Positions 49,780-53,637 of a stretch of 64,000 nucleotides of DNA are shown here, piece by piece. Origin of the DNA: Candidatus Gemmiger excrementigallinarum. Its GTDB lineage: Bacteria > Bacillota > Clostridia > Oscillospirales > Ruminococcaceae. Made by a program: the position numbers and the translations under genes. Location: assembly GCA_019116445.1 (NCBI GenBank), contig DXBP01000059.1:1-64000 (forward strand). The letters are read 5' to 3'. The number at the start of each line of letters is the position of its first letter. Within the stretch, counting starts at the first letter, position 1. Below the pieces are notes generated by a model. It saw only the letters and a list, made by a program, of their open reading frames with translations. It was not told the DNA's origin and searched no databases.

Positions 49780-49855
49780 GGGCCTGTAGCTCAGTTGGGA
49801 GAGCGTTCGGTTCGCATCCGAGAGGTCAAGGGTTCGAATCCCTCCAGGTCCACCA
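49780..49855 (+). tRNA. tRNA-Ala (CGC)
   Basis: Acceptor GGGCCTG (49780-49786) pairs with CAGGTCC (49845-49851). The anticodon stem-loop TTCGG-TTCGCAT-CCGAG gives anticodon CGC, and the T loop is TTCGAAT. CCA is encoded at 49853-49855. The acceptor does not keep the canonical G3-U70 pair at the expected place only by virtue of G3 opposite T (49782 with 49849), which does match alanine identity. Confidence 0.94.
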
Positions 49856-49945: not shown

Positions 49946-49974
49946 TTCCCATTTTGCACTTTTTGTGCTATACT
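49946..49974 (+). promoter_or_regulatory. Promoter of the Spo0A-like cassette
   Basis: An extended -10 TGCTATACT (hexamer 49969-49974) has a weak -35 TTCCCA (49946-49951) at 17 nt. The leader is about 155 nt and has a hairpin ACGTTT/AAACGT (49987-50016). Confidence 0.55.
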
Positions 49975-50137
49975 GAACCAAAACAGACGTTTCTTGCGCT
50001 GCGCGTAGGAAAACGTAGGTCCCGTGTGGATTGAATCCTTTCTCAGTATGCCCTATAGTACCTTATTAAAGAGGGACTGTACCGCGGCAGGCTCTCCGGA
50101 CAATTCGGTTTTGTTGATTGGAGAGGATGAAGGAGTT

Positions 50138-50419
50138 ATGGAAGAAGCCGGACGGGAATATCTGGCCGTTTACCGGCGGGATTTTTCAGAGCTGGAAGGC
50201 CTGCAGCAGGCCGAGCAGGTGACGTATGCCCTGCAGCGCGTGAAAAATGCCCTGTGTTTTTATGCAAAGCGGCGAACGACTGCCCGGGAGGTTTCCTGCT
50301 GTCTGCGCGGCGTGGACGAAGCGTTTGCGGGACGTTTGCTGTGCTATATGTATGAAAATGCCGTGGCGCCGGAGCAGGTCCCCGACGTTCTGCGGGATCT
50401 GTGCGGAACGGCGGTGTAA
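50138..50419 (+). CDS. Small soluble protein of unknown function, Spo0A-like cassette
   Basis: The 93-residue product is helical and charged (REYLAVYRRDFSELEGLQQAEQVTYALQRVKNAL) with two cysteines in a row near residue 54. No membrane segment or known family is recognised. The start is uncertain: ATG 50138 has AAGGAG only two bases away, which is tight, and a GTG at 50024 in the same frame would add 38 residues without a good ribosome-binding site. It is the first gene before the Spo0A-like regulator, with 59 nt between them, so a modulating or phosphotransfer-related role can be proposed but not shown. Confidence 0.6.
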   Translation: MEEAGREYLAVYRRDFSELEGLQQAEQVTYALQRVKNALCFYAKRRTTAREVSCCLRGVDEAFAGRLLCYMYENAVAPEQVPDVLRDLCGTAV

Positions 50420-50478
50420 AAACCATGCAAGGGACGTTGGAAAGGAGCTGCAGCGCTCTGGAAAATGGGAGGACAGCG

Positions 50479-51234
50479 ATGCAGCCGCTGACACAAAAGA
50501 AAACGGTCGTGGCGGTTTTTGTCACCGATGCCCGCATGGAACGGGATTGCATCCGGCTGTACGCGCAGACGCACCCTGAAGTCCGCGCGGCGGCGGTTTT
50601 GCCCGGTGGGCGGGAACTGCTGCAGCAGCTGCACCGCGGATTGTCGCCCCAGGTGTTGGTGCTGGATGTCCTGCTGGCGGATATGGGGATCTTTTCCCTC
50701 ATCGAAGCGGTGCATGAACTGCATCTGGACCCGGAACCGGTCATTCTGCTGACAGCGCCGGTGCCGGAACAGACAGCAGCTCGCCGTGCCATGCAGGTAT
50801 TCGGTGATTGTCAGATCCTGCTCAAGCCCTATCGGCTGAAAGAACTGTTTGATCAGGTCTATCTGCTGGGCGCCGGGGCAGACCAGTATCGTTTGTACCG
50901 CGCGCGGGGGTTCTGCCGGCGCTGCCTGCAGCAGATGCACGCCGACCCGGCGATGAGCGGGTGTGATTATCTGGAACAGATGCTGCTTTGCGCCTATACG
51001 GCAGAGCGCCCCTACACGGGTGCGGCGCTGTATCAGATGGTTGCGCAGGAAAATGATACCCAGGAGGCCAGTGTGGCGGCGGCTGTTATGCGGTTGTCCC
51101 GCAAAATGTGGCAGCAGGCAACCCCGTTGTACCGGTCGCTTTGCCTGCGATGCGGGCTGCCGGCAGATGCGGTATTGCCCAACGGCAAACTTTTAAAGGG
51201 AATGTTGGAACTGCTCCGGCAGGAGATCGTATAG
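50479..51234 (+). CDS. Divergent Spo0A-like response regulator
   Basis: The 251-residue protein has a receiver domain with the key residues in place (Asp17, phospho-acceptor Asp63 in LVLDVLLADMG, Thr92, Lys116 in LLKPY). The C-terminal domain (about 162-250) follows the Spo0A output domain column by column: YLEQMLLCAY; LYQMVAQENDTQEASV; W210; and P234-N235 before a final GMLELLRQE helix. The DNA-recognition helix differs strongly from Spo0A, so the box it reads is probably different. ATG 50479 follows GGGAGGACAGCG; earlier in-frame starts lack a ribosome-binding site. A GHKL ATPase follows after 25 nt. Confidence 0.78.
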   Translation: MQPLTQKKTVVAVFVTDARMERDCIRLYAQTHPEVRAAAVLPGGRELLQQLHRGLSPQVLVLDVLLADMGIFSLIEAVHELHLDPEPVILLTAPVPEQTAARRAMQVFGDCQILLKPYRLKELFDQVYLLGAGADQYRLYRARGFCRRCLQQMHADPAMSGCDYLEQMLLCAYTAERPYTGAALYQMVAQENDTQEASVAAAVMRLSRKMWQQATPLYRSLCLRCGLPADAVLPNGKLLKGMLELLRQEIV

Positions 51235-51259
51235 GCAGCGGCAAAGGGAGGAACGCGGT

Positions 51260-52069
51260 ATGCAGCCAAACGAACAGGAACTGATGATGGCCCTGCGCGG
51301 TGGTCTGCGCGGGCGTTTCCGCCAGTCTTTTCACCTGCTGGAAGCTGCGTTTGAAGTGTTGGACGATCGGATGGCCCACTGTGTGACGCCGGAGGAATAC
51401 GAAACCATGCAGCCGATTTTGCGGCAGATCACCGAGCAGCTGCTGAGCCTTCAGCGGCTGGGGGAACATGCGGCGGATGCGGCCATTGCGCCGGTGCTGC
51501 ACCAGGCGTGTGCGCCGCGTGCCATGGATTTGCTGGGCCAGCTGCGGGAACTGGCGGAACTGCTCAATGAAATTCTGCTGCAGGAATCTGTGGAAGCCTC
51601 GGTACGGGTAGAAGCTGCCGAAAACCTTGGCGTTTTGCTCACCATGGGGGACGATACGCTGCTCAACGGTCTGCTGGCGAACCTGGTTTCCAACTCTTTG
51701 GCGGCGGGCCTGCCGGTGCAGATCACGTTGTCCTGCGAGCCGGGGCGGCTGTACTACCGGGATAACGGCCCCGGTCTGCCGGAAGATGCAGCAGCGCTGC
51801 TGGAAAGCGGCGTCTGGAGCGACCGGCTGCTGGAACAGGGCGGGTTGGGCCTGCCGCTGATCCGGGCCTATGCGGCTGCCATGGGCTGGACGTTGACAGT
51901 GGAACGGGAAGCCGGTATCTGTGTGTGTTTCTCGCTGCCTCCCTGCACGCTGGATCTGGGCAGCATGGTGCTGGAATCAACAGCCGGTACCCCGTCCCAG
52001 CGCCAGCGCCGCCGGCAGGATCTTTGGAGGGAACTGCATCCGGTTTTGCCGCAAACCCCGGAAACATAA
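51260..52069 (+). CDS. GHKL-type ATPase, soluble kinase-like protein
   Basis: The 269-residue protein has no membrane segment. The C-terminal half is a histidine-kinase-type ATPase domain: N box LLANLVSNSLAAG (138-150), G1 YYRDNGPGLP (165-174) and G2 GGLGLPLIRAYAAAMG (194-209). The N-terminal half is helical like a dimerisation domain but has no clear H-E/D-x-x-T/N acceptor; His25 in SFHLLEAA is the only candidate. GGGAGGAACGCGGT precedes the ATG. Position after a Spo0A-like regulator suggests that it phosphorylates, dephosphorylates or otherwise controls it. It may be a degenerate sporulation-type kinase or a Spo0B analogue. Confidence 0.75.
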   Translation: MQPNEQELMMALRGGLRGRFRQSFHLLEAAFEVLDDRMAHCVTPEEYETMQPILRQITEQLLSLQRLGEHAADAAIAPVLHQACAPRAMDLLGQLRELAELLNEILLQESVEASVRVEAAENLGVLLTMGDDTLLNGLLANLVSNSLAAGLPVQITLSCEPGRLYYRDNGPGLPEDAAALLESGVWSDRLLEQGGLGLPLIRAYAAAMGWTLTVEREAGICVCFSLPPCTLDLGSMVLESTAGTPSQRQRRRQDLWRELHPVLPQTPET

Positions 52070-52078
52070 TCTTTACGG

Positions 52079-52112
52079 GCACCACCCAGGCGGGCGGTGC
52101 TCTTTTTTTTCG
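52079..52112 (+). terminator. Terminator of the Spo0A-like cassette
   Basis: A 9-bp stem with one mismatch (52079-52087 with 52092-52100) is followed by TCTTTTTTTT. Confidence 0.85.
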
Positions 52113-52980: not shown

Positions 52981-53535
52981 ATGAGCAGCACGACCAAACC
53001 CTATGAAGAAAAGATGAATGCCAGCGTGGACCATCTGGTCCGGGAACTGGCTGCGATCCGCGCCGGCCGCGCCAACCCTGCCGTCCTGGATAAGGTTACG
53101 GTGGACTACTACGGCAGCCCCACGCCCATCAACCAGATTGCTGCGGTGTCTGTGGCGGAAGCCCGTATCCTGACCATCACCCCCTGGGACCGCCAGATGC
53201 TCAAGCCCATTTCCAAGGCGATCCAGACCAGTGATATCGGCATCAACCCCATTGATGACGGCCAGGTCATCCGTCTGGTGTTCCCGGCTCCCACCGAGGA
53301 ACGCCGCAAGCAGCTGACCAAGGACGTGCAGAAGCAGGGCGAGGAGGCCAAAGTTGCTGTGCGTAACGTCCGCCGTGACGCCATGGATAAGTTCAAGGCC
53401 ATGAAGAAAGCCGGCGAACTGACCGAGGATGACCAGAAGAAACTGGAAGAAGAAACCCAGAAGCTGACCGACAAGTACGTCAAGATGATCGACGATACCT
53501 GTGCGGCCAAAAACAAGGAAATCATGGAAGTCTGA
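52981..53535 (+). CDS. frr: Ribosome recycling factor
   Basis: RRF with EF-G splits post-termination ribosomes. The 184-residue protein has the tRNA-mimic two-domain pattern: a long three-helix bundle (LVRELAAIRAGRANPAVLDKV at the start, RNVRRDAMDKFKAM later) and the small beta/alpha domain with GSPTPINQIAAVSV. ATGAAGGAGAAATTGCC precedes the ATG. It follows pyrH by 51 nt, the usual pairing. Confidence 0.97.
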   Translation: MSSTTKPYEEKMNASVDHLVRELAAIRAGRANPAVLDKVTVDYYGSPTPINQIAAVSVAEARILTITPWDRQMLKPISKAIQTSDIGINPIDDGQVIRLVFPAPTEERRKQLTKDVQKQGEEAKVAVRNVRRDAMDKFKAMKKAGELTEDDQKKLEEETQKLTDKYVKMIDDTCAAKNKEIMEV

Positions 53536-53561
53536 TTCCGGTCAGCGCTTCCTCATCGTCT

Positions 53562-53591
53562 GTGCGGGCATGCCGATCGGCACGCCCGCAT
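53562..53591 (+). other. GC-rich hairpin between frr and cdsA
   Basis: GCGGGC-A-TGCC / GGCA-C-GCCCGC (about 53564-53590, GATC loop) forms a stable hairpin without a T tract, so it is not a standard terminator. It lies in the 102-nt gap where uppS is often found; it could stabilise the upstream mRNA end. Confidence 0.5.
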
Positions 53592-53637
53592 AGGCTGTTA
53601 TGAGTACACTATTCCATCCGTGAAAGGGAACCACCGT

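Follow-up and report, generated by a model that had tools for sequence, protein, structure and literature searches.

The stretch analysed here, referred to as the window, comprises 64,000 nucleotides of Candidatus Gemmiger excrementigallinarum (contig DXBP01000059.1, positions 1 to 64,000, forward strand) and carries a compact cassette of three genes, all on the same strand, with a tRNA-Ala(CGC) gene on one side and pyrH on the other (Table 1). The first gene encodes a small protein of the DUF6514 type, the second one a response regulator related to Spo0A, and the third one, separated from the regulator stop by 25 nt, a GHKL protein that looks like a histidine kinase deprived of its phospho-acceptor His. 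The original prediction, made from the letters of the window, had drawn these three open reading frames and the 25-nt gap, and both were confirmed. The analysis described below points to the cassette being probably an autoregulated module derived from Spo0A whose cognate kinase became an ATP-binding pseudokinase; DNA binding, signal, and target process we infer from sequence comparisons.

Table 1. Features of the cassette and its surroundings (positions of the window).
Feature	Position	Strand	Remarks
tRNA-Ala(CGC) gene	49780-49855		upstream of the cassette
Possible upstream promoter P1, TTCCCA-17-TATACT	49946-49974	+	consensus scan only
Candidate operator, TTGC-N6-CGTA-N6-CGTA	49994-50017	+	recurs in the clade; generic tandem-box scan
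Sigma-70-like promoter P2, TTGAAT-17-TATAGT	50031-50059	+	13 bp past the operator
Small DUF6514-type gene	50138-50419 (codons 50138-50416)	+	93 amino acids
Spo0A-paralog response regulator gene	50479-51234 (codons 50479-51231)	+	251 amino acids
GHKL pseudo-histidine-kinase gene	51260-52069 (codons 51260-52066)	+	269 amino acids
Intrinsic terminator, hairpin + T8, between kinase and pyrH	52077-52110	+	fold -18.9 kcal/mol

Residues 148-214 of the window regulator matched the Spo0A_C family (PF08769) at 19.4 bits, below the curated cut-off of 25, and the best solved-structure matches of the protein searched alone were Spo0A receivers. A profile built from 14 cassette C-termini reached 1lq1 (2.6e-9) and 1fc3 (6.2e-9), both of them structures of the Spo0A DNA-binding domain, and no other solved structure matched it below an E value of 0.01, in agreement with the Spo0A-type C-terminal domain initially proposed. 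PF08769 was also matched by 11 of 12 aligned cassette regulators (E up to 1), and an hhalign comparison with the Spo0A of the same genome gave an E value of 7.8e-21 along 227 columns, at 15% identity. The receiver holds Asp63, Thr92, and Lys116, the three residues predicted, and keeps Asp17 alone from the usual acidic pair; the output domain and the phospho-acceptor Asp that characterize the Spo0A family are both present. In contrast, what marks a canonical, orthologous Spo0A, the recognition helix VERAIRH (seen in the four canonical copies inspected) and the box TGTCGAA, is replaced by VAAAVMR, so the altered helix also stood, and by boxes GCGCGTA and AAACGTA. The canonical spo0A gene is located at positions 69984-70295 of the contig (PF08769, 154.9 bits), around 19 kb downstream of the cassette. 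As judged from these comparisons, the regulator is a Spo0A paralog that exists beside the canonical copy.

The GHKL protein matched PF02518 at 38.7 bits. A profile of 22 cassette kinases spans the DHp and ATPase domains of KdpD 6lgq (query 11-239, 3.3e-31) and matches the pseudokinase DivL 4q20 at 1.3e-20; its invariant columns, N141, N145, G197, and L198, correspond to ATP-site residues and do not include the His column. In the window kinase, the N, G1, and G2 boxes and a conserved C-terminal tail are kept, Gly stands where the H-box should have its phospho-acceptor His (GRFRQ is found opposite HEFKT of L101, a relative with the His intact), and the E/DxxT/N phosphatase motif is gone (E to R, T to Q), so that the ATP boxes of an orthodox histidine kinase are present and its two other hallmarks are absent. 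Throughout the 13 rows of the window's clade, N141, N145, D168, G172, G197, and L198 are invariant and a new motif, GGLxGR, takes the place of the His; the H-box His is absent from all 13, and no column holds a His in more than four of them. An alternative phospho-His near residue 25 was rejected, being limited to L000, L118, and L120, and a Spo0B-like phosphotransferase was discarded because the ATP site of the window protein is intact and the His is missing. Inspection by eye, without a predictor, showed no membrane segment. The lack of a clear phospho-acceptor His thus held, whereas nothing supports the suggestion that the protein feeds or drains the Spo0A phosphorelay. By its sequence, it is an ATP-binding pseudokinase, with ATP binding predicted, and it reads as the decayed cognate kinase of the cassette regulator, having lost the His and the E/DxxT/N motif.

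Regarding the small protein, a Pfam scan of the window sequence alone gave no match, and PF20124 (DUF6514) was matched by 5 of 11 aligned members (E up to 1, the best at 1.5e-9). It was initially described as a 93-residue protein of unknown type; the length was right, and its relatives appear to place it in DUF6514, a functionally uncharacterized family on which a full-text search of the accessible literature retrieved no paper. The protein shows the motifs FSxLxxLQ...Y and LYENAV and a predicted bbbb-aa fold (model mean predicted local distance difference test, pLDDT, 86.5), with the WGR domain as a weak structural look-alike. Solo DUF6514-type paralogs without a regulator were observed in L132, L134, and L135 (G369, G601, G638) at one conserved place, followed by a gene that looks phosphoglucomutase-like by eye. 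In addition, the small gene of G119 (L096 / L050, G119:C56:15850-16116), within a cassette with a His-keeping kinase, contains an in-frame TAG.

Upstream of the small gene lies the sequence TTGCGCTGCGCGTAGGAAAACGTA (49994-50017), which can be read as two 7-bp boxes, 50001-50007 and 50011-50017, with 3 bp between them. The pattern TTGC-N6-CGTA-N6-CGTA was found in 10 of 51 cassette upstream regions, every one of them in the window's clade, and when CGTA-Nk-CGTA was counted in these regions for k from 0 to 20, k=6 gave 10, k=11 gave 4, k=15 gave 2, and the others none. A generic scan for tandem boxes (xxxCGxx-N3-xxxCGxx, similar boxes with an A/T-rich middle, the CG being thus fixed by the scan) detected a site with period 10 in 31 of 50 cassettes, belonging to 14 of 24 groups, and in 3 to 13 cassettes with periods 8, 9, and 11-15. 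A stricter version (6/7 identical letters) yielded 14 of 50 at period 10 and no more than 6 at any other period between 8 and 30, compared with a mean of 1 and a maximum of 3 in 200 block shuffles. In these comparisons, L093 and L080 (no regulator) were left out of the 50 distinct cassettes; L090, which failed the automatic order test, was used for the upstream operator and promoter comparisons; L073 and L101 contributed a short upstream stretch; and the 24 groups were drawn by hand from the tree. For L126 and L139, the generic scan probably picked something other than the true site; an in-register site was found by eye for L139 and for L090. The comparative table of boxes was also picked by eye, in contrast to the generic-scan counts.

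The cassette boxes are similar to TGTCGAA, the 0A box, in which canonical Spo0A contacts G2, C4, and G5, as far as the accessible part of PMC3485338 describes. The presence of G2 varies by clade: of the 18 cassettes whose recognition helix keeps the Arg (VERAI-R-H), 15 have it in both boxes and 16 in at least one, and of the 13 lacking the Arg (Met204 in the window), none has it in both boxes and 4 in at least one, counts that, as those of tandem sites, ignore kinship. The covariation of box G2 with the helix Arg is an argument for the cassette regulator being the protein that reads the operator.

The position of the boxes relative to the promoter was also conserved in most cases. The 13 bp between operator and P2 were found in L118, L120, L128, L130, and L124 as well, and 23 bp, one helical turn more, in L076, L079, L083, L085, and L121. 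Among the 31 cassettes with a generic site, the distance from box 2 to the TTG of the -35 was exactly 9 bp in 16 (9 groups), 13 bp in 6 (2 groups, the window's included), and 23 bp in 5 (1 group), and in all these the best -10-like hexamer came 17 or 18 bp after the -35. Across all 50, CG-N11-TTGC[AC] occurred in 11 of the 24 groups and its counterpart with one more helical turn in 12; among the remaining spacings, one reached 8 groups and the others 0-4. At the place of P1, L128 and L130 hold better hexamers by eye; a sigma-H promoter over the operator was discarded, its spacing being unsuitable by eye. The own promoter and terminator initially assigned to the cassette were borne out, with P2 and the hairpin followed by T8 bounding the unit, although the promoter scan by itself is weak (3 found in the stretch vs 1.0 expected). 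A simple fold criterion detected a terminator-like hairpin in 31 of 40 pyrH-linked cassettes, the window included. Such a hairpin was absent before pyrH in 7 of 9 His-intact and 2 of 31 His-less pyrH-linked cassettes, a suggestive difference, although confounded by kinship; insulation from pyrH may have arrived with the loss of the His.

The H-box His, receiver Asp, and ATP site were compared in the 50 distinct cassettes. The His was kept in 13 and replaced in 37 by G, A, C, Y, N, T, Q, M, E, K, S, P, or D, and the receiver Asp was kept in 41 and changed to S, N, or G in 9. On a tree built without those columns, the fewest changes required were 4 for presence or absence of the His, 17 for the letters at its position, and 5 for presence or absence of the Asp; as for a correlated loss of both residues, there were three independent pairs on the starred branches, the Asp differing in none. 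The His-intact cassettes include PAS/GAF-type sensor kinases (L096, L097, and L101, domain names by eye), and ATP-site motifs persist in most cassettes. Within the 13-row clade of the window, Asp63 is invariant (13/13), Lys116 is kept in 11 of 13, and the acidic partner residues are partly lost.

The distribution of the cassette was analysed in a family sample of 396 genomes from 126 genera, searched with a DUF6514-type profile (E up to 1e-6). The gene was found at 49 places in 45 genomes of 16 genera, the window's genus providing 8 of the 45 carriers among the matches listed. At 44 of the 49 places, the order was DUF6514, regulator, and kinase, the five exceptions being solo copies (G081, G369, G601, G638, and G598), so the gene order is not scattered in relatives. 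In 33 of the 44 complete cassettes, no more than around 330 nt separated the kinase stop from the start of the pyrH frame; ten of the other 11 had no pyrH in the stretch taken and one had it 2.3 kb away, and the order was kept away from pyrH too (L096, L097, L098, L105). An order-wide sample gave matches in 9 of 295 genomes, 4 of these from the same family, and a named collection provided 24 loci (10 Gemmiger, 4 Fournierella, 3 Anaerofilum, 3 Faecalibacterium, and 4 others). Compared with the nearest relative, L118, the three genes gave ratios of nonsynonymous to synonymous substitution rates (dN/dS) of 0.094, 0.059, and 0.167, and pyrH one of 0.012; values in the two closest pairs ranged from 0.06 to 0.24, so that close pairs are under purifying selection. 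Because the order recurs at 44 of 49 places and dN/dS against L118 is 0.06-0.17, the cassette represents more than a chance arrangement.

Searches for a wider regulon were carried out with several patterns. Six genus genomes each had a single copy of the exact full operator, in every case that of the cassette, and no one-mismatch site was found in those six; two-mismatch sites amounted to 17, vs 32 matches of the reversed control pattern. With a shorter pattern, eight genus genomes gave 9 sites, 6 of them at the cassette, and 13 control matches. G433 had its site elsewhere only and G054 had none, both lacking the CGTA form at the cassette. By eye, the non-cassette site of L152 falls inside an open frame reading like rnhB, and those of L149 and L151 lie in the centre of the stretch, filled by long open frames. 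A GACGRA-type tandem pattern occurred at 24 places in eight genomes of g9 and g58, 8 of them at the cassette (one per genome), and since control matches (31) outnumbered these places, no regulon is claimed from it.

As for sporulation, canonical Spo0A_C (>150 bits) was detected in 41 of the 45 carriers, and spoIVA in 42 of them, compared with 30 of 32 non-carriers chosen by hand. No link to loss or gain of sporulation was visible, spoIVA being alike in both sets, and because canonical Spo0A and SpoIVA are kept in carriers, the module would add to the sporulation circuit and not replace it. The rewired Spo0A branch put forward in the original prediction is upheld in part: the regulator is Spo0A-derived, it stands beside a canonical copy, and relatives keep the gene order, whereas no wider regulon appeared in the six genomes. 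Further short frames (121-175 amino acids) with Spo0A_C above the cut-off were observed outside cassettes in G047:C90, G655:C67 and C87, G583:C22, G560:C15, and G480:C40.

Regarding the genomic setting, the host genome amounts to 2.38 Mb in 67 contigs (83% complete), and the window pyrH shares 98% identity with its counterpart in the nearest genus genome and 90% with that of the closest locus bearing a name (uncultured Gemmiger sp.). A tRNA-Ala(CGC) gene was close to the cassette in 14 of 20 scanned relatives, on either strand. The frr-cdsA spacing is 85 nt in the window (53535-53620) and around 0.8 kb in several relatives, such as L071, with room for an extra gene, which we take to be uppS. 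In L093, a contig labelled as uncultured Succinivibrionaceae ends in a Gemmiger-like DUF6514-regulator pair and is probably misbinned or chimeric.

In the model we propose, the module would have originated from a two-component system with a Spo0A-paralog response regulator. This regulator would bind the operator as a tandem dimer and control its own operon, activation being the more likely outcome because the boxes keep a fixed helical phase upstream of the -35. For the window's clade, we propose that the pseudokinase, with ATP bound, would dock to the regulator and either gate its binding to DNA or read the state of Asp63, with no phosphotransfer taking place. The DUF6514 protein would act as a third component, giving the signal or serving as an adaptor. 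Since Asp63 is invariant in the clade, it may still receive phosphate from another donor, such as a Spo0A kinase or acetyl phosphate. A more specific version, which we put forward tentatively and hold to be somewhat doubtful, is that of a self-addressed switch shedding phosphotransfer and lacking a bulk regulon, in which the DUF6514 protein and the pseudokinase gate the regulator by contact, several lineages having lost the His and the Asp, and operator and helix having drifted together from the 0A code, insulating the paralog from Spo0A.

Several observations weigh against an autoregulated module with a pseudokinase. The generic scan found no tandem site in 19 of 50 cassettes, the related L082 included, and the window site scored 5.0, just the threshold of the scan. 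The link between box and helix is built on few independent changes, the TGACGAA-like boxes present in some clades are potential targets of canonical Spo0A, and the regulator may have weaker target sites missed by a pattern search. The alignment of the H-box is uncertain in the most diverged rows, above all in L131, and ATP-site motifs look degraded in L071, L072, L111, and L117. Finally, dN/dS reached 0.38-0.54 against L128 and L130, with synonymous divergence (dS) near or above 1, so that constraint at this distance is either weaker or saturated.

Other explanations were weighed as well. The tandem boxes might be targets of canonical Spo0A, in which case the cassette would belong to the Spo0A regulon and tune the phosphorelay without being autoregulated. 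Such an arrangement would fit the conservation of canonical spo0A in most carriers and the TGACGAA-like boxes, close to TGTCGAA, of several clades; however, the canonical helix was VERAIRH in all four copies inspected, yet the boxes vary with the helix of the cassette regulator, and the CGTA boxes of the window lack G2, one of the three contacted bases in what the accessible part of PMC3485338 describes, which makes it unlikely. We give a similarly low probability to an ordinary two-component system, in which the kinase would use another residue, or another kinase would phosphorylate the regulator and the GHKL protein would be only a phosphatase. The conservation of Asp63 and Lys116 in the clade and the intact ATP site of the window would be expected from it, but the clade has no conserved His, the E/DxxT/N phosphatase motif is also lost in the window, and the Asp has been lost too in other lineages (9/50).

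The frequent neighbourhood of pyrH, within around 330 nt in 33 of 44 complete cassettes, and the lack of a terminator-like hairpin before it in 7 of 9 His-intact linked cassettes would also be compatible with a module serving the pyrH-frr-cdsA-dxr operon, its promoter driving or reading through into these essential genes. Nevertheless, a terminator lies between them in the window and in 31 of 40 pyrH-linked cassettes, and several cassettes are located elsewhere, so we regard this service as quite improbable. We find it hardly credible that the cassette is a decaying remnant, with genes drifting towards pseudogenes and a neighbourhood conserved only through pyrH. Its proteins do diverge far faster than pyrH (44-52% vs 93% identity to L128, with dN/dS of 0.38-0.47), and the G119 small gene bears an in-frame TAG, but dN/dS is low in the two closest pairs, GGLxGR is invariant, the geometry of operator and promoter is kept, and so is the gene order away from pyrH. 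An autoregulated Spo0A-derived module with a pseudokinase is the explanation we favour.

If so, the cassette may show a phosphate-driven switch turning into something else in Gemmiger-related gut bacteria. Response regulators, Spo0A, and pseudokinases are each already known; here, one family includes intact sensor kinases, trimmed kinases, His-less kinases, and Asp-less regulators, with an operator to match in members of each stage, a natural series in which to follow how phosphotransfer signalling gets replaced. With one helix position set against one box base, it also lends itself to small-scale tests of how regulator and operator co-evolve, and it attaches a first context to DUF6514. Among the matches listed for the literature on Spo0A paralogs (also in Oscillospiraceae), Spo0A-like or orphan regulators, and Ruminococcaceae sporulation, no mention of the cassette was found; PMC6136694 speaks of a paralog in its reference list only, and Spo0A in Faecalibacterium and Gemmiger gave no match.

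Compared with Spo0A, the cassette regulator has the receiver and the Spo0A-type output domain along its full length and faces tandem 7-bp boxes with a CG core, separated by the same 3 bp as the tandem 0A boxes of Spo0A. It differs in its 15% identity, the changed helix, CGTA instead of CGAA, and the absence of G2, and in being a paralog beside a canonical copy, within a three-gene cassette, for which a role in sporulation lacks support. The Bacillus subtilis spo0A promoter, as far as PMC12090719 could be accessed, consists of Pv and Ps with 0A boxes between them and is autoregulated; in the cassette, too, the boxes are flanked by promoters serving the gene of the regulator itself, one before and one after them, although P2 looks like a sigma-70 promoter and, in the window, P1 is weak. 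The ChrS protein of Corynebacterium glutamicum, in the available part of PMC9491836, provides another histidine kinase turned pseudokinase in a two-component pair, in an unrelated heme-response system. Finally, the pseudo-histidine kinase DivL of Caulobacter, which reads the phosphorylation state of a response regulator according to the portion of PMC4211667 available, shares with the window protein a HisKA-HATPase core with a replaced phospho-acceptor (Tyr, once Ala, in DivL) and conserved ATPase boxes, whereas the window protein carries Gly within GGLxGR, has no PAS domains, and is encoded beside its regulator.

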